Positions 43,277 to 52,333 of a stretch of 64,000 nucleotides of DNA are shown piece after piece. Within the stretch, counting starts at the first letter, position 1; each line of letters begins with the position of its first letter. The DNA comes from Reichenbachiella faecimaris (GTDB taxonomy: Bacteria; Bacteroidota; Bacteroidia; Cytophagales; Cyclobacteriaceae), in assembly GCF_900176375.1 (NCBI RefSeq), contig NZ_FWYF01000004.1:310001-374000 (forward strand), given 5' to 3'. Below the pieces are notes generated by a model. The model saw only the letters and a program-made list of their open reading frames with translations. It ran no database searches and was not told where the DNA came from. The position numbers were made by a program, and so were the translations under genes.

Positions 43277-44650
43277 CTAATCCATCACCTTCACCTCATT
43301 ATTCAAAGTCTCAATGGTGTCTTTGGCGTCGCCAAAAAGCATCTTGGTTTTGTTGTGGAAGAATAATGGATTTTCAATTCCAGAATAACCTTTGCTCATC
43401 CCTCTTTTGAGCACCACCACATTTTTAGCATTCAGAATTTCTAATACAGGCATACCATAGATTGGACTTCCTGGATCATCCAAAGCGGAAGGGTTGACTA
43501 CATCATTGGCGCCTACTACGAGGCATACATCCGTATCACCAAGCATGCCATTGGCATCATCCAAGTCAATCAATTTATTATAAGGCACATCAGCTTCCGC
43601 CAATAGCACATTCATATGCCCTGGCATACGGCCAGCCACTGGGTGGATGGCATAATTCACATTTACTCCCCTGGACGTCAAACTTTTATCGAGCTCTTTA
43701 CAAGCTTTTTGCGCTTGGGCGACTGCCATACCATAGCCAGGAATCACCATGACATTTTGTGCGTATCGCATCATAATGGCTGTGTCGTTGGCCGTAGTTT
43801 CTTTGATGTCACCTTGATCCGTAGCTACTGCTGAGGCAGAAGCACCAAATCCTCCGACCACCACGTTGATCAATGACCGATTCATGGCCTGGCACATAAG
43901 AACAGTCAAGATAGCTCCTGAAGATCCTACAAGCACTCCTCCAAGTAGCATGACCATATTGCCATATACCAAACCCGCCAAAGCAGCAGCTATACCTGTC
44001 AAAGCATTTAATAGTGAAATGACCACTGGCATGTCTGCACCTCCAATTGGCCAAACAAAAGTCAATCCGTAGATCAAGGAAACGCTCAAAATGATGAGTG
44101 GTAAAAATTCATAAGCTGTTGGGTTTGCTACTTGAAATACAATCAAACCAAGACACAGCGCCAACCAAATCAAATTGAAATACGAGGAAATTCCATTTCT
44201 CCAATCTTTCACCTTGCCCGCTAATTTGCCATAAGCAATTAAACTACCAGTAAAAGCTACACCACCTATGAACAAGGCCATATAAGTTGTCCCCATCAGG
44301 CCAATAGAAGAAGAAGCATCAAACTTATACGCTTCCAAAATCGAAATACAAACGGCACAAGCACCTCCAAATCCATTAAAAACAGAAACCAATTCTGGAA
44401 TGCCAGTCATCTCCACCTTTTTGGAATAAACCATGCCGATCACTGAACCCATAGCAATAGCTACAAAAATATGGATCAGATTGCCCTGATCATTCGCCAT
44501 GGGACTAAAAATTGCCACTAAAATGGCGGAACCCATACCCACGGCAGCAATCACGTTTCCATCTCTTGCCGTAGATGGGCTACTCAATTTTCTCAGCCCT
44601 ATAATCAAAAGGACAGTCGAGACGATATATAATAATTCGATGTACTGCAT
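43277..44650 (-). CDS. pntB: NAD(P) transhydrogenase subunit beta
   Basis: 457 residues. The first about 260 are membrane-embedded helices; the C-terminal NADP-binding domain III has VIPGYGMAVAQAQKACKEL, AIHPVAGRMPGHMNVLLAEADVPY, CLVVGANDVVNPSA, PIYGMPVLEILNAKNVVVLKRGMSKGYSG and ENPLFF. Together with the two genes upstream it forms the proton-driven enzyme that reduces NADP with NADH at the inner membrane. It is the last gene of the unit, 1 bp after pntAB. Confidence 0.97.
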   Translation of the reverse strand: MQYIELLYIVSTVLLIIGLRKLSSPSTARDGNVIAAVGMGSAILVAIFSPMANDQGNLIHIFVAIAMGSVIGMVYSKKVEMTGIPELVSVFNGFGGACAVCISILEAYKFDASSSIGLMGTTYMALFIGGVAFTGSLIAYGKLAGKVKDWRNGISSYFNLIWLALCLGLIVFQVANPTAYEFLPLIILSVSLIYGLTFVWPIGGADMPVVISLLNALTGIAAALAGLVYGNMVMLLGGVLVGSSGAILTVLMCQAMNRSLINVVVGGFGASASAVATDQGDIKETTANDTAIMMRYAQNVMVIPGYGMAVAQAQKACKELDKSLTSRGVNVNYAIHPVAGRMPGHMNVLLAEADVPYNKLIDLDDANGMLGDTDVCLVVGANDVVNPSALDDPGSPIYGMPVLEILNAKNVVVLKRGMSKGYSGIENPLFFHNKTKMLFGDAKDTIETLNNEVKVMD

Positions 44651-44651
44651 C

Positions 44652-44957
44652 TTATTTCTTCTTAAACATTTCCAACATACGATTGGTCACGGCATGACCA
44701 CCTACTACATTGATAGTGCCCAGCACAATGCCCAAGGCGCCTAATGCGAGTGTTACATAATCATTTGATTCCGCTTGTCTAACCAGTATGATGGCTCCAA
44801 TGATAACGATACCACTAATCGCATTCGACCCCGACATCAAGGGTGTATGCAATACGGTTGGGACTTTTGAAATCACTTCAAAACCCAGATAAATGGTGAT
44901 AATTAACAAATTGATCATGAGCACATGATCCTTCAGATAATCTAATATCTCAAACAT
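44652..44957 (-). CDS. pntAB: NAD(P) transhydrogenase alpha subunit, membrane part
   Basis: 101 residues with three membrane segments (LMINLLIITIYLGFEVISKV, HTPLMSGSNAISGIVIIGAIILV, YVTLALGALGIVLGTINVVGGHAVT). This is the short membrane portion that is separate from the NAD-binding part in the split alpha arrangement. The motif HTPLMSGSNAISG is conserved in domain II. It lies between pntAA and pntB with tight spacing. Confidence 0.95.
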   Translation of the reverse strand: MFEILDYLKDHVLMINLLIITIYLGFEVISKVPTVLHTPLMSGSNAISGIVIIGAIILVRQAESNDYVTLALGALGIVLGTINVVGGHAVTNRMLEMFKKK

Positions 44958-44983
44958 GGTCTTTAATAATTTAATGGTTGGGG

Positions 44984-46084
44984 TTATGCTGAAACGGTGG
45001 ATTCCCTTTCTACTTTCAACAGCGACTGACTTACTATTTCACTGTCATAAGGCAATTTATCCTTACCTTCTTTCAGCACGTATTTCAGGAAGTTGTAGAT
45101 ATTATTGCTATACAACAAACTGGCTTGCTTACCCATTTGATTGTATAATTTCGAATCACCAATGATTTTCACTCCGTCAATATCTACCGTCTGATCGTCT
45201 TTCGACAATTCGCAGTTTCCTCCACTTGCTGACGCCATATCTACGATGATGCTGCCTTGTTTCATGGCATTCACTGTGCGATTCTCTATGAGTATGGGCG
45301 CCTTTCTACCTGGGATATTGGCCGTTGTGATTACCACATCAGCCTTGACAGATGTTTCGTGAATCAATTCCTTTTGCTTGGCTATATAGGCCTCTGATTG
45401 CTCTACGGCATAACCTCCAGCCGCACTATCTTCTTGCGCACCTTCTACCTCGATAAATTTGGCACCCAAACTTTGCACTTCTTCTCTTACTGCAGTTCTA
45501 ACATCAAAGGCCTCAACTATAGCTCCTAATCTTTTAGCCGTAGCGATAGCCTGCAATCCGGCCACCCCTGCACCCAAAATCAATACCCTGGCTGGCGGAA
45601 TGGTACCTGCAGAGGTAGTCATCATTGGAAAATAGCCGGCAAATTCGTCAGCAGCAGTCACTACAGCTTTATATCCTGACAGCGAAGCCAAAGAGGATAG
45701 CACGTCCATAGATTGTGCAATAGTAGATCGTGGCAACAAATCAAGGCTAAATACTTGCGCCCTAGATGTTTTCAGGTTGGTGATGAGCTCAGACTCAACT
45801 CTACCGTTGAATTTACCTACCAACAATGCCTCTGGTTTAATTCGATCAATATCTGTTTTTGGAATGCTCGTACCAGTAAGTATGACGTCAGCTTTTGTAA
45901 GCACTTCATTTCTCGTGGAAATGACGGCTCCAGAAGATTCATAGACTTCATCATTATAACCAGATGATTTTCCTGCTCCTGATTCTACGACGACTTGATA
46001 TTCGTCTTTGATCAACTTGGCCGCAACCTGTGGTACTAAAGCCACGAGATTCTCTGCTGTACATTTCACTACACCAATTACCAT
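44984..46084 (-). CDS. pntAA: NAD(P) transhydrogenase alpha subunit, NAD-binding part
   Basis: 366 residues of domain I, related to alanine dehydrogenase: VALVPQVAAKLIKDEYQVVVESGAGKSSGYND, the Rossmann loop VLILGAGVAGLQAIATAKRLGAIVEAFDVR, and EEVQSLGAKFIEV, with VITTANIPGRKAPILI and GSIIVDMASASGGNCELS. It binds NAD(H) on the cytoplasmic face and passes hydride to domain III of PntB. First gene of the three-gene unit. Split alpha subunits like this are usual in Bacteroidota. Confidence 0.96.
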   Translation of the reverse strand: MVIGVVKCTAENLVALVPQVAAKLIKDEYQVVVESGAGKSSGYNDEVYESSGAVISTRNEVLTKADVILTGTSIPKTDIDRIKPEALLVGKFNGRVESELITNLKTSRAQVFSLDLLPRSTIAQSMDVLSSLASLSGYKAVVTAADEFAGYFPMMTTSAGTIPPARVLILGAGVAGLQAIATAKRLGAIVEAFDVRTAVREEVQSLGAKFIEVEGAQEDSAAGGYAVEQSEAYIAKQKELIHETSVKADVVITTANIPGRKAPILIENRTVNAMKQGSIIVDMASASGGNCELSKDDQTVDIDGVKIIGDSKLYNQMGKQASLLYSNNIYNFLKYVLKEGKDKLPYDSEIVSQSLLKVERESTVSA

Positions 46085-46390: not shown

Positions 46391-49333
46391 ATGACTTCTA
46401 TAGCAGAGGAACTAGTTGGTAAAATTGATAAATGTCTAAAAAGCCACTTTCAGGCGAAAGTGGAGGAGCTTTTGGATCAAGAAGTCGATCACATGCTACA
46501 GATTGTGGAGCAGGTCAACTCCTACTACGCTTTGCCAGCAAAGAAAAGGTCTTCAGATGCTCAGTTGGCCCAATTCAAGCATAAGTTACTGGATCAAATC
46601 GATACGCTTTGGTCCAAGCCTGAGTCTCAAGATTTGGCAGTTTTGCACGAATCTTTCCTACATGAGTTGCAAGGAATTCTAGAAGATGTGTCAATTTATC
46701 AGACGGTAGAGCAAAGTCACGACAGATTTATTGCCATCAGCTCAGATCCTGCCTGGGTTAGAATTTTCAAACTTGGCAAAAGGCTCATCTATCATTTGAC
46801 ATGCTTACCCAATGGCATTGCCAATCTTTTCAGAAAGGAAAAAATTCATAAACCCTATTGGAAACATGAGATTCCGCTAAGAAATCTGGCGAAAAAACAC
46901 TTCTTGGTTCAAGTACTTCTCGACCTCCAAGACGCAACTGAAATGCTATATTCAGGCGTAGCAAGCGAGTACGTAAACCTAAAGGAGTGGGAAGAAAAAC
47001 TTAGTCATGGTGATACTGAGGCTTCTAAAATTGATGCTGACGATATGCTTAATTTCAAAAATGAATTGGGCAAATCCCTCAAGCGAAAAATAAAAGAAAT
47101 CACTGGGCCAAAAGCTGTCAAATTTGAATTGGAATATGAGAAGGCCGGCACCTTTGAACTACCCGAAGCCAGACTGAGCAACGAAATAATCTATAACAAA
47201 GTAGAATCAGCCAAAAGCCAATGGAGCCTGAATGACCTGGAGTGGCGCAATACCAATTACGCCCTGTTTGAAGAATGGCGTATGGATCTCAACATCAACC
47301 TGCTCAAGCACAAAACGCTGGCGAGTTTGTTTGAATTTCAATCAGCACAATTCAAGAAAATCGATGACTACATAGGGCCAGAAATGGATGAAATCAAATC
47401 ATTCATTGATGAAAGCATTAGCTCATTGAGCAAAGAACATGAATCTATTGCCAAAGAATTGAAACGACTAAATTATCAGGCAGTAAAAAAATTGGATAAG
47501 GAAGTGGTTCCACGTTTGTGCGATAAACTTTCAAATCAAACGGTCATTAACCTGATCAATAAATTAGAGGTCAGTATTGCCAATCAGGTAGAAGAGCTGT
47601 CTGACGAACGCGTGATTGTAAAAAGTGGTAGCTACAACGCCCCAATCAAATCAGAAGACCTTAACGTAATCTCTCCACACGAATTGATTGCTTTTGAGAC
47701 TTTACCTATTTTCAAAAAACAAGTAGAACTGATCAAACAAGGTTCTTTCTCTTCGCTAGAGCGAATGGTGGAAAACGTGAAAGATCTCGATCATATCATC
47801 ACTTTCAGTCTTTCGTCAGGTATTGCTTCTATGGAGCAACAAAGAGACCCACAAGAAGCCATATCTATTGCTGAAGAAGGGCTGAAACGTGCGGTCGCCC
47901 GTCTTATAGAAGAGCGCAACCAGCTCAACGAAGCCATGATCGTGAATGGTAATGAACTGGAAACAGTGATCAATACCTTTTGTGATGGTGTGATGGAACT
48001 CACTTTCAATGAGAATGTGAGACAGCTGCGGATGCGAATCACCAAGGCCAAGGCAACTCAGCAAGCCAAGGAGGTGCGACAAAGATTGGAAGAAAAAATG
48101 ACCACTCGCAAAAAGCGTGTGGCCTTGGTACTACTTGGAATCTACAATGATGTCCGTCACAAGCTGAACTCACTGAGTGAGAGCTTTGTACTTACCGCCA
48201 AGAAGCCAGAGATATCCAAGCAAGTCTCTGATTTTCTACTGGAATCACAGCAAGCCATAGACAAATTGCCCCTGATTTATAAGCGCCTGTATCAAATCGA
48301 GCCACTAGAAGATCTGGAGCTTTTTGAAGGGCGAAAAGATGAGTTTGTCACGTTAAAAAAAGCATTTGAAAGTTGGCAAAAAGGACACTATGCTGCCACT
48401 GTAGTACTGGGAGAAAAGTGGGGTGGTTTGACCTCCTTTATCAATTACAGCCTGTCCCATGCCCGTTTTCCATTCACGATCACCAGAATGAAGCTGGAAG
48501 GCAATGGATGCAATGAAGATCACTTTATCCAGGTGATGCGTACCACCTTCAAAAATGATACTTTCACACAACTTGAAGAAGTAATCAATTATCTCAACTC
48601 CTCATCCAAACGAGTGGTGATATTGGAAGACATTCAAAATCTTTTCCAAAGGAAGGTGAATGGCTTTGAAGCCATGCAAATGCTTTTTCAGATCGTCAAC
48701 AAAACCTATAAAAATGTATTCTGGATAATAAGTTCCACGGTATACACCTGGTCGTACCTAGAAAAAACCATCAACATCAACGAATACTTCAGCTACGTCA
48801 TTGAATTAAAAACTATGACGAGCGACCAGATCATCAGCATCATTTGGAAACGCAATCGTATCAGTGGATTCAAAATTCAGTTTGAAACTGATGCAGGTTC
48901 TGCAGACGACAAGAAGTTTAAGAAACTGAATGAAGCAGAACAACAACAATGGTTGAAGAAGAAATTCTTTTCAGAACTCAATAGTTTTGCACAAAGCAAC
49001 ATCAGCTTAGCGCTGATCTACTGGCTGCTTTCTACTAAGGAAGTAGACGATAGCTCTATCACTGTCGGAACTTTCAAAAAACCAAACCTCAACTTCCTCA
49101 CTGTCCTGGCCATGGATAAAATATACGCACTTCATGCGCTGATTTTACATGATGGTCTGACGATCGAGCAATTAGCTCAGGTATTAAATGTGACAGTGAA
49201 AAGCTGTGAATTGATATTGTTAGCACTGCTTGAGGATGGTATTTTGGTAAAAACCCATGAAGCTTATATGATTAATCCAATTGTATATAGAAATACCATT
49301 AGCTTACTTAAATCAAGAAATTTAATTCACTAA
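46391..49333 (+). CDS. Large AAA/STAND-like protein with degenerate Walker A, coupled to MscS
   Basis: 980 residues, no signal peptide and no clear membrane segment. Residues 1-640 are mostly helical and charged, with coiled-coil stretches near 330-400 and 540-600. Residues about 640-800 look like an AAA/STAND NTPase core: an approach helix (LFEGRKDEFVTLKKAFESW), a P-loop-like VVLGEKWGGLTSF (671-683) in which Leu680 replaces the essential Lys, a Walker-B-like RVVILEDIQNLF (741-752), and a sensor-1-like WIISSTVYTW (778-787). A lid region (SDQIISIIWKRNR) and a C-terminal winged-helix-like tail (LTIEQLAQVLNVTVKSCELILLALLEDGIL) follow. The stop shares one base with the MscS start, so the products are made together. 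I know no named family for it. Confidence 0.8.
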   Translation: MTSIAEELVGKIDKCLKSHFQAKVEELLDQEVDHMLQIVEQVNSYYALPAKKRSSDAQLAQFKHKLLDQIDTLWSKPESQDLAVLHESFLHELQGILEDVSIYQTVEQSHDRFIAISSDPAWVRIFKLGKRLIYHLTCLPNGIANLFRKEKIHKPYWKHEIPLRNLAKKHFLVQVLLDLQDATEMLYSGVASEYVNLKEWEEKLSHGDTEASKIDADDMLNFKNELGKSLKRKIKEITGPKAVKFELEYEKAGTFELPEARLSNEIIYNKVESAKSQWSLNDLEWRNTNYALFEEWRMDLNINLLKHKTLASLFEFQSAQFKKIDDYIGPEMDEIKSFIDESISSLSKEHESIAKELKRLNYQAVKKLDKEVVPRLCDKLSNQTVINLINKLEVSIANQVEELSDERVIVKSGSYNAPIKSEDLNVISPHELIAFETLPIFKKQVELIKQGSFSSLERMVENVKDLDHIITFSLSSGIASMEQQRDPQEAISIAEEGLKRAVARLIEERNQLNEAMIVNGNELETVINTFCDGVMELTFNENVRQLRMRITKAKATQQAKEVRQRLEEKMTTRKKRVALVLLGIYNDVRHKLNSLSESFVLTAKKPEISKQVSDFLLESQQAIDKLPLIYKRLYQIEPLEDLELFEGRKDEFVTLKKAFESWQKGHYAATVVLGEKWGGLTSFINYSLSHARFPFTITRMKLEGNGCNEDHFIQVMRTTFKNDTFTQLEEVINYLNSSSKRVVILEDIQNLFQRKVNGFEAMQMLFQIVNKTYKNVFWIISSTVYTWSYLEKTININEYFSYVIELKTMTSDQIISIIWKRNRISGFKIQFETDAGSADDKKFKKLNEAEQQQWLKKKFFSELNSFAQSNISLALIYWLLSTKEVDDSSITVGTFKKPNLNFLTVLAMDKIYALHALILHDGLTIEQLAQVLNVTVKSCELILLALLEDGILVKTHEAYMINPIVYRNTISLLKSRNLIH

Positions 49334-50298
49334 TGAATAAGTTAGTCTTCATATCCCTATGGCTGATCACGAGCTTTTCCTCTTATGGGCAAGCTTCTGA
49401 TAGTCTGAGCCTGGCGAAGATAGATTCTATCGTGGTCGCCAAGGTTGATTCAGTTCACACTTTGGATTCGGCACAATATGCCCAGCAAGCAGTCGAAAAG
49501 AAAAAAGTAGATCTCAAGACGCCTCCACAAGTCACAGAATTGATTTCCCTCCCAAATCTGTTTTGGAGTTTGATCTTTATTATCGTAGGCTATTTTGTGA
49601 TCAAGTTTACTTCCAGAATTCTGGAAATCTTTGCGGAACGTAGTACCAAGTATCGTATCACCATCAAAAGCGTTATTCCTGTAATAAAAATTCTTGGCTG
49701 GGTGGTTGTCATCTTTTTGATCGTAGTCGGGATCTATCAGCCGCCTGCATCTACTGTGCTGGCATTCTCTGCTTCCATAGGCGTGGCAGTGGGTTTTGCT
49801 TCTCAGGATATTCTCAAAAACATCTTTGGTGGTATCGTAATCCTCTTTGATCGACCATTCAATTCTGGGGACAAAATTCAGGTAGGCGATACCTATGGCG
49901 AAGTGGTGGAAATCGGCTTGCGCTCCACCCGTATCGTAACACCCGACGACAATCTTGTCACTATTCCTAACGGAGAGATCATGAACAGCTCCGTGTCCAA
50001 TGCCAATGCTGGCGAAGCCAACTGTCAGGTAGTAGCAGAAATCTATCTGCCTATTAATGCCGACACTGTACACGTACGAGCCCTAGCCATACAAGCGGCT
50101 CAGGTATCCAAATACGTATTCCTCAACAAACCCATTGTGGTCGTATTTTCTAATGAGCATAAGGAACGACAATCCATCATCAAAATGAAAATCAAGGCCT
50201 ACGTGCTCGACATTCGAGACGAATTCAAGTTCAAAAGTGAAATGACTGAAATCGTAATTAAGAAATTGCTTGAAGAAGGAATATTGACGAAAGATTGA
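49333..50298 (+). CDS. MscS family mechanosensitive channel
   Basis: 321 residues. A possible signal peptide (to about 20) and a Ser/Asp/Lys-rich periplasmic stretch lead to three membrane segments: about 77-96, 113-136 and 140-172. The third is the pore helix with AFSASIGVAVGFASQDILKNIFGGIVILFDRPF, followed by GDKIQVGDTYGEVVEIGLRSTRIVTPDDNLVTIPNGEIM, the beta domain. MscS opens on membrane tension and releases solutes. Its start overlaps the stop of the AAA-like gene (TAATG), which suggests a complex or joint regulation. Confidence 0.94.
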   Translation: MNKLVFISLWLITSFSSYGQASDSLSLAKIDSIVVAKVDSVHTLDSAQYAQQAVEKKKVDLKTPPQVTELISLPNLFWSLIFIIVGYFVIKFTSRILEIFAERSTKYRITIKSVIPVIKILGWVVVIFLIVVGIYQPPASTVLAFSASIGVAVGFASQDILKNIFGGIVILFDRPFNSGDKIQVGDTYGEVVEIGLRSTRIVTPDDNLVTIPNGEIMNSSVSNANAGEANCQVVAEIYLPINADTVHVRALAIQAAQVSKYVFLNKPIVVVFSNEHKERQSIIKMKIKAYVLDIRDEFKFKSEMTEIVIKKLLEEGILTKD

Positions 50299-50407: not shown

Positions 50408-52333
50408 ATGGCAGGCAAAGACATCCAAGAAGAACTTAAAAACCTACTCGTACTTCTCAAAAAAGAGAAGGAGGCTGACTTGCAGCAATACCGTCAGAAA
50501 ATGGCTGGCACTTCGCTAAAAGAACGACGCAAACAAGGTGTCTGCTGGTATCCTATCAATTTAGAAAAAACCAAATTCGATGCTGGAGAAAGGTTAATTG
50601 TGAAAATATCACGACCTCCAGAGCATACGGATGCACATCTTTTTCAATCTGGAAAACTGATCAGCTTGTTCTCTGCCAATGGAGGGAATGGAGACTATGA
50701 AGATGCGGCAAATGGTGTCGTCAATAATGTGACCAAAACCCACATGCACATTACCATGAATGTAGACCATTTACCCGATTGGCTTCACCATGGGCAGATG
50801 GGAGTACAGCTACTGTTCGATGAAAATGCCTATCGGGAGATGGAGCGTACGTTGACAGCACTGCTCAATACAAAAGAAGAACGTATAAATGAATTCAAAA
50901 AAATACTACTAGGAGATAAAGCCGCACAATTCACTGACCATGAAACCATTCGTGATTTAGGATTGAATGACAGTCAGAATGCAGCACTACATCAAATTCA
51001 CAATGCCAAGGATGTAGCTATCATTCATGGACCACCTGGCACAGGAAAAACCACCACGGTTGTACAAGCTATTTTGGAAACTTTGAAATCTGAAGACCAG
51101 ATTTTGGTGTGTGCTCCCAGTAATGCTGCTGTTGATTTATTGGCTGAAAAACTGGGTGATCAAAAAATAGAAGTACTTCGCATCGGGCATCCTGCACGGG
51201 TCACTGAAGATATCCTGAATAAAACTTTGGATGCCAAGATTGCCAATCACAAAGATTTTAAGGATCTGAAAGCCTTGCGCAAACAAGCAGATGAGTACTT
51301 TGCCATGGCAGGTAAGTTCAAACGTAGTTTTGGTCATAATGAAAAAAAACAGCGAAAAGCGCTAAAGGACGAAGCCAGATCATTGAAAGCCCAAGCAGAA
51401 CATCTCAACTATTACATTGTCAATGACATCATCAGCAAATCACAGGTTATTGCCTGTACATTAGTAGGTGCCAACAACCAAATGCTGAAAGGTATGACTT
51501 TCGAAACGGTATTTATAGATGAGGCCGCACAAGCACTAGAACCTGCCTCTTGGATTCCTATCCTAAAATCTGACAGAGTCATATTCGCTGGAGATCACTG
51601 TCAGCTCCCTCCTACCATCAAGTCTTTTGAAGCAGCCAAGGCAGGATTGGAAGTGACGCTTTTCGAAAAAGCCATTCAAAGAAATCAGGCGGACACCATG
51701 CTACAGGAGCAATACCGCATGCATGAGCAAATCATGAATTTTAGCAGCCGCTTATTTTACAAAGATCAGCTCATTGCCAATGAAATGGTAAGAAATTGGA
51801 GGGTATTTGTTGAAGATCAGACGGTTGAGTTTATTGACACAGCTGGCTGTGGGTACTTTGAGCAGGTCGATCCGGAAACCAGAAGTTCCTTCAACACAGA
51901 AGAGGCAGATTTACTTTTCAAGCACCTGACCAATTACCTGATGACTCTGGATGCCATGGGAAAATCGGATGATCTGGCGAGTATTGGAGTCATTTCTCCA
52001 TACAAAGCACAGGTCATTAATATGCAAGAGCAATTGGCTGCTATGGAGTTGGATGAGATTACAACCAAGAAAGTTGCCGTCAATACTATTGATTCTTTTC
52101 AAGGTCAAGAACGTGATGTGATTTATATCAGCTTGGTACGTTCAAATGAAAATGGTGAGATCGGATTCTTATCTGACACCAGAAGAATGAATGTGGCTTT
52201 GACCCGAGCACGTAAAAAATTAGTCGTGATCGGAGATAGTGCCACCATAGGTCAGCACCCTTTCTATCAGAAATTTTTGGATTATGTCAATGAGGTGGAT
52301 GCCTATCATAGCGCTTTTGAGTGGATGGCGTAA
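50408..52333 (+). CDS. IGHMBP2-like SF1 helicase
   Basis: 641 residues. An N-terminal beta-barrel-like region (GVCWYPINLEKTKFDAGERLIVKISR) precedes the two RecA-like domains. Motif I IIHGPPGTGKTTT is at 206-217, Ia VCAPSNAAVDLLAEKL, II FIDEAAQALEP (Asp371-Glu372), III ILAGDHCQLPPT-like (VIFAGDHCQLPPT), IV/V VNTIDSFQGQERDVIYISLVRSN, and VI LSDTRRMNVALTRARKKLVVIGD. This is the UPF1/IGHMBP2-type superfamily 1B, a 5'-3' helicase on RNA or DNA. Such genes are common in Bacteroidota; the substrate is unknown. It is 109 bp after mscS and may have its own promoter. Confidence 0.93.
   Translation: MAGKDIQEELKNLLVLLKKEKEADLQQYRQKMAGTSLKERRKQGVCWYPINLEKTKFDAGERLIVKISRPPEHTDAHLFQSGKLISLFSANGGNGDYEDAANGVVNNVTKTHMHITMNVDHLPDWLHHGQMGVQLLFDENAYREMERTLTALLNTKEERINEFKKILLGDKAAQFTDHETIRDLGLNDSQNAALHQIHNAKDVAIIHGPPGTGKTTTVVQAILETLKSEDQILVCAPSNAAVDLLAEKLGDQKIEVLRIGHPARVTEDILNKTLDAKIANHKDFKDLKALRKQADEYFAMAGKFKRSFGHNEKKQRKALKDEARSLKAQAEHLNYYIVNDIISKSQVIACTLVGANNQMLKGMTFETVFIDEAAQALEPASWIPILKSDRVIFAGDHCQLPPTIKSFEAAKAGLEVTLFEKAIQRNQADTMLQEQYRMHEQIMNFSSRLFYKDQLIANEMVRNWRVFVEDQTVEFIDTAGCGYFEQVDPETRSSFNTEEADLLFKHLTNYLMTLDAMGKSDDLASIGVISPYKAQVINMQEQLAAMELDEITTKKVAVNTIDSFQGQERDVIYISLVRSNENGEIGFLSDTRRMNVALTRARKKLVVIGDSATIGQHPFYQKFLDYVNEVDAYHSAFEWMA

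Follow-up and report, generated by a model that had tools for sequence, protein, structure and literature searches.

A 64,000-nucleotide stretch of the Reichenbachiella faecimaris genome (contig NZ_FWYF01000004.1, positions 310,001 to 374,000, forward strand; hereafter the window) contains two adjoining genes, one for a large soluble protein with a degenerate AAA+ domain (P0001, the module) and one for a channel protein of the MscS family (P0002). This arrangement, a soluble module with MscS, is called class A below. Both open reading frames (ORFs) were confirmed at the coordinates in Table 1, including the single base that they had been read as sharing, which lies in TAATG. Of 62 class A pairs, 22 show the same 1-base overlap and another 8 a 4-base overlap, with gene starts chosen mechanically throughout. 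Chance was excluded for the observed pair, the nearest orthologues (45-49% identity) keeping the frame, the shape of the P-loop and the MscS neighbour. The genome carries one copy of the module and six MscS domains.

Table 1. Features of the module-mscS locus, in positions of the window.
Feature	Residues	Positions	Strand	Basis and remarks
Module gene (P0001)	1-980	46391..49333	+	ORF; 980 amino acids (aa); class A soluble scaffold with degenerate AAA+ domain
Helical scaffold	1-624	46391..48262	+	AlphaFold 2 (AF2) model of residues 1-612: predicted local distance difference test (pLDDT) 93, predicted template modelling score (pTM) 0.82
AAA+ core, lid and winged helix	625-980	48263..49330	+	Predicted fold
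Walker A, GEKWGGLT	674-681	48410..48433	+	Leu680 at the Lys position; in the model, strand 670-674 and helix from 680
Walker-B-like strand and loop	741-751	48611..48643	+	VVILEDIQNL is 742-751; strand 741-746; Glu746, Asp747
Sensor-1-like strand	776-783	48716..48739	+	Alignment and model
TAATG, module stop overlapping mscS start		49331..49335	+	One base common to both ORFs
mscS gene (P0002)	1-321	49333..50298	+	ORF; 321 aa; canonical pore subfamily
MscS pore helix (third transmembrane helix, TM3)	140-172	49750..49848	+	Gly/Ala-rich, motif VGFASQDILKNIFGG; alignment and composition
MscS C-terminal vestibule domain	234-317	50032..50283	+	PF21082, 19.1 bits against a cut-off of 21

Searches of P0001 against Pfam and NCBIfam gave nothing over the cut-off, and the best sequence match in the PDB had an E-value of 0.51. 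Its hydropathy windows all lay under the limit of 1.6 (maximum 1.58). The protein was modelled with AF2 at a pLDDT of 87. Residues 2-624 were almost wholly helical in the models, interrupted by short strands at 104-107, 158-161, 407-410 and 424-427, as had been proposed for the long N-terminal part. Within 46391-48226 this scaffold holds an internal repeat, residues 79-206 against 382-472; the two halves of the scaffold were aligned by hhalign with a probability of 93.5 and E of 2.2e-7 (reversed control, probability 2.9). Residues 624-980 matched Orc/Cdc6 and TnsC, with the winged-helix tail inside the matched region, and have the predicted core, lid and winged-helix fold of Orc/Cdc6/STAND-type AAA+ proteins. 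The sequence-only reading of an NTPase core of AAA or STAND type followed by a winged-helix-like tail was thus upheld by the predicted fold, and the core is better described as an Orc/Cdc6/STAND-like AAA+ domain. STAND proteins carry hhGRxxE ahead of Walker A and GxP in the lid. The former is present in P0001 as FEGRKDE, and within the section of class A to which P0001 belongs Arg648 is kept in 30 of 31 rows; the latter is absent from P0001, which has Ile871 there (Pro in 12 of 22 rows of class B, described below).

The Walker A pattern GxxxxGK[ST] is broken in P0001 by Leu680. The family and order searches gave 35 class A modules; Lys was missing from 32 of them, the position being filled by Leu (13), Met and Ala (4 each), Thr and Ile (3 each), Asn (2) and Gln, Val and Cys (1 each), with Lys in the remaining 3. 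In the same set Gly679, Thr or Ser at 681 and Glu or Asp at 746 were each present in 35/35. Residues were then surveyed phylum-wide in 110 sequences, in which two class A rows were unreadable; Lys was absent from 39 of the 64 readable class A modules. In a quick tree (from which L199-L216 were left out, these being classed by architecture) class A was divided into 22 members that keep Lys and lack Asp747, and 42 members, 39 of which lack Lys. Since Lys is also kept in 25 of 27 modules fused to cotransporters (class B; Arg in the other 2), as it is in this MscS-paired sister clade of 22, its loss is a property of the clade and not of the family. The missing Lys noted from the sequence is therefore real and lineage-wide. 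On whether it is always absent the answer is divided: 39 of the 42 members on the window's side of class A lack it and the two groups just named largely keep it, so that the objection that homologues retain the Lys holds in part.

The acidic Walker B position differs between classes A and B; in P0001 Glu746 ends the strand and Asp747 follows it. Lys680 and Asp747 occurred together in 1 of 64 class A modules, 24 of 27 of class B, 5/5 class-B-like pieces, 2/2 of class D, and in none of five each of classes C and R (architectures below). Because class A retains Glu746, which might serve as the Walker B residue, the loss of Lys appears to be the only clear lesion of the window protein. Separately, Gly679 (48425-48427), Gly758 (48662-48664) and, in the winged helix, His920 (49148-49150) were invariant in 82 aligned C-terminal sequences of all classes.

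P0002 belongs to the MscS proteins (PF00924, 81.3 bits against a cut-off of 20.2, E 5.4e-23; YnaI and MscS structures, E 3.6e-16). The module and its MscS partner were searched for in 148 genomes of the window's family, 2 to 15 candidates being scored per genome, so that genome counts are lower bounds. A class A module was found in 33 of them (E 2.2e-58 or better), in one copy per genome, contig-split copies aside. Strong matches to P0002 (153 bits or more) were found in exactly those 33 genomes and adjoined the module in 33/33; the agreement of the two sets and the adjacency were judged by eye from tables. The next-best MscS in any of the 148 genomes scored 90 bits. The suggestion that the two genes are kept together was borne out, and homologues of the large protein standing without mscS are not the usual case.

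A scripted strict rule placed MscS downstream at a distance of 33 bp or less in 62 of 66 class A loci, the window's own neighbour being added to the count by hand. L109, L114 and L171 fell outside this rule because their MscS ORF overlaps the module end by 150-160 bp (in L109 split over two frames), and L112 lies at a contig edge. MscS was directly downstream in 7/7 further class A loci. In class R, which has the same parts in reversed order, it was directly upstream in 5/5, as it was in eight further loci of this type, five by gene map and three as ORFs overlapping the mechanically chosen module start. By the strict rule a downstream MscS was counted in class B (20 of 27 loci), class-B-like pieces (3 of 5), class D (2/2) and class C (4 of 5); in L177, the remaining class C locus, the MscS ORF is an overlapping one. 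In one genus (L170-L172, L174, L175) the module is shortened to C-terminal ORFs of 298-428 aa, with MscS still 3' of it, directly in four loci and as the overlapping ORF in L171.

Phylum-wide, with the same limit on candidates per genome, the module profile found matches at E 0.001 in 84 of 395 genomes; the weakest of these are doubtful, as those above about 1e-5 may be unrelated P-loops. These relatives are one modular system. Class B proteins (1657-1821 aa) consist of an N-terminal cotransporter domain of SLC12/KCC type followed by the module. In L037 this domain matched PF00324 with E 4.7e-49 and KCC4 with E 1.4e-79, and 27/27 class B proteins, L037 included, matched the L037 N-terminus at E 8.3e-128 or better; strongly hydrophobic segments were confined to the first 470 aa in all but one of the 27. 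Class C proteins (1465-1501 aa) have a membrane domain, antiporter-type in most, fused ahead of the module and stand beside TrkH. PF00999 was over the cut-off in three of five (L169, L173, L176), and L178 was assigned through its similarity to L169 (E 8.2e-61). In class D (749-808 aa) the run of module, small membrane protein and antiporter was found in 5/5 loci. The small protein is MscS-like in three; in L199 and L200 its place is taken by a membrane protein of 185-187 aa without detectable MscS similarity.

The Gly/Ala-rich TM3 of MscS is present in the P0002 subfamily, with a mean Gly+Ala fraction of 0.33 for class A partners (n=62), and in class R (0.44, n=5). MscS-like partners in classes B and C have lost it (0.09 in each, n=20 and n=4). 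Values for class-B-like pieces (0.16, n=3) and class D (0.19, n=2) were also low, and the displaced partner of L177 gave 0.25. As a control, 15 other MscS ORFs within the loci were collected, of which the displaced partners L109, L114, L171 (class A) and L099 (class B) were dropped and L177 (class C) retained, giving a mean of 0.39 (n=11, range 0.20-0.55). The other MscS proteins of the genome itself averaged 0.36 (seven rows, two of them duplicates; 0.38 by hand for the five distinct ones).

In some class B or B-like loci the C-terminal vestibule domain survives alone. The partner in L034, L037, L047 and L087 (the last two being B-like pieces at contig ends) has 114-123 aa, and its sole match was to the MscS C-terminal domain (hmmsearch E 7e-10 to 4.7e-4); control ORFs taken from a pool of 808 with 90-130 aa did no better than E 0.014. 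No hydrophobic segment was found in the three of these that were checked (L034, L047, L087). L036 was not significant by itself (E 0.16); together with the other four it aligned to the MscS C-terminal domain by hhalign with a probability of 97 and E 3e-11. This survival of the C-terminal domain next to the module is the strongest pointer to where the module may dock, namely on that domain.

Ion-transport genes adjoin part of the loci. Within 3.5 kb, TrkH was present in 5/5 class C loci and 11 of 27 class B loci had an antiporter, and five class A loci have runs of TrkA, TrkH, antiporter, module and MscS, with the transport genes just upstream. As background, the window's own 4.7-Mb genome holds only 6 antiporter genes and 1 TrkH gene. 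Other neighbours were recorded by Pfam on single members. A RimK-like ligase and a PF05618 protease-like gene flank the pair upstream in L060, L061, L063 and L066, where an AstE/AspA-like gene is also present, and downstream in L062, L105, L106 and L108; these genes possibly belong to solute or glutamate metabolism. In the window, three consecutive ORFs on the minus strand (43277-46084) were read by eye as pyridine nucleotide transhydrogenase, and an IGHMBP2-family helicase (TIGR00376) follows downstream (50408-52333, plus strand); both lie outside the module-MscS system.

We put at about even chances the reading that the pair represents the channel form of a modular system for ion and cell-volume homeostasis, in which the lysine-less pseudo-AAA+ protein acts as an obligate partner of MscS. 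The 980-aa protein would be a soluble scaffold with a C-terminal Orc/Cdc6-like AAA+ domain, from which ATP hydrolysis has most likely been lost in the window lineage because the Walker A Lys is gone. Working in the cytoplasm as the obligate partner of a channel translated along with it, the module would most likely dock on the C-terminal vestibule of MscS and set its opening threshold or its inactivation according to the state of the cytoplasm. With hydrolysis probably lost, the window version would serve as a passive scaffold or a binding switch. In the sister systems the same module would act on a KCC/NKCC-like cotransporter, where the ATPase residues are usually intact, or on an antiporter-type membrane domain, and the MscS-like protein of these transporter-fused systems, its pore signature lost, may be an adaptor only. 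Because the conduit is swapped among channel, cotransporter and antiporter and the module stays the same, a common input is likely, which might be crowding of the cytoplasm, ion strength or a nucleotide, for example.

A broader version is put forward tentatively, and we lean somewhat against it. The AAA+-derived scaffold would be a phylum-wide plug-in osmotic controller, docked on the MscS vestibule and driving one conduit per system (MscS pore, KCC-like cotransporter or cation/proton antiporter). Where the conduit is a transporter, MscS would decay to a poreless adaptor; where it is the channel, the ATPase would decay to a pseudoenzyme; with a cotransporter the ATPase would stay active.

Several points weigh against the homeostasis reading. 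Binding of the module to MscS, its control and direction of gating, and the signal sensed are steps that we infer. The states of ATPase and pore do not run strictly counter to each other, since class C keeps Lys yet has a partner with a degenerate pore, and few independent branches of the quick tree underlie the correlated changes. Potassium-transport or antiporter genes were absent within 3.5 kb in 59 of 65 class A loci, some with flanks of only about 1.5 kb. The N-terminal 430 aa of the fifth class C protein (L177, 1465 aa) matched neither PF00999 nor the transporter domains of classes B and C, although the gene adjoins TrkA and TrkH. Nucleotide may also still be bound in class A, because Glu746 is kept and Lys676 lies within the P-loop.

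This last point leads to an alternative that we regard as rather unlikely, namely that the module binds nucleotide through Lys676 or Glu746 and gates its conduit by binding and exchange and not by hydrolysis. The invariance of Gly679, Thr/Ser681 and Glu/Asp746 in the 35 class A modules and the sister clade that keeps Lys would fit such a switch, but the ten residue types at the Lys position, Lys included, resemble a lost constraint, and the proposed substitute Lys676 is Ala in six members (L062, L076, L105, L106, L108, L111). It is improbable, in our judgement, that the module is a chaperone for assembly or membrane insertion of MscS and the fused transporters and not a regulator of open channels. 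An AAA+ fold, overlapping genes and obligate pairing would fit a chaperone; covalent fusion to transporters and retention of the soluble MscS domain alone fit a permanent complex better, and the ATPase residues are mostly lost in class A.

A defence role, which the sequence-only reading had entertained, is given very little chance. In such an anti-phage or suicide system the inactive STAND-like protein would trigger the channel, and predicted conflict systems that have an inactive STAND protein as third component are described in PMC7159879. When six proteins were scanned with PADLOC, weak matches were found in two of four relatives, L103 to mads_8 in its AAA region (E 0.0011) and L037 to Csa3 only (E 0.037), but no family matched P0001 or P0002 at E 0.1. 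Defence is also at variance with a single class A copy in each of 33 genomes, a clade-wise distribution and the potassium-transport neighbours of part of the loci. A DNA-binding regulator of osmotic genes, with mscS merely co-expressed, has hardly any chance: its Orc/Cdc6-like winged helix is suggestive, but in classes B and C the module is joined covalently to membrane domains.

If the homeostasis reading holds, an obligate AAA+-type partner would bring MscS gating under cytoplasmic control as well, bacterial KCC/NKCC-like cotransporters would gain a dedicated regulator, and channels, cotransporters and potassium uptake could be coordinated in a new way, while MscS proteins would have found a second use as pore-free adaptors. 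Members of the family can be recognised from sequence and occur in named strains, among them Reichenbachiella agariperforans DSM 26134, Ekhidna lutea DSM 19307 and Marivirga sericea DSM 4125, so that it can be tested.

The components are of known kinds; their combination appears to be new as a system, its mechanism as proposed here is inferential, and the family is so far undescribed, no publication listed in searches of an open-access library being recognised as describing the combination. Among the nearest known systems are the iSTAND ternary systems, where, in the main text of PMC7159879, an inactive STAND-type NTPase likewise stands in a conserved gene group but with vWA and MoxR partners; MscS, mechanosensitive, cotransporter and SLC12 are not mentioned in that main text. 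Unlike Orc/Cdc6, TnsC and PABY2304-type AAA+/STAND proteins, the window clade lacks the Walker A Lys, has a helical scaffold of about 620 residues in front and is tied to membrane transport. Class B shares its N-terminal domain with the SLC12 transporters KCC and NKCC in 27/27 cases and differs in the fused module and in the MscS-like protein that mostly comes after it. MscS channels are commonly regarded as sensing membrane tension on their own. P0002 resembles MscS and YnaI in its PF00924 beta-domain, its Gly/Ala-rich TM3 and its structure matches, and is unlike them in having an obligate co-encoded AAA+ partner, with sister versions that lack the pore signature or the membrane part. In TrkA/TrkH and other gated potassium systems a cytoplasmic nucleotide-binding protein regulates an ion conduit, much as is proposed for the module; TrkA is an RCK protein, whereas the module is of AAA+ type.

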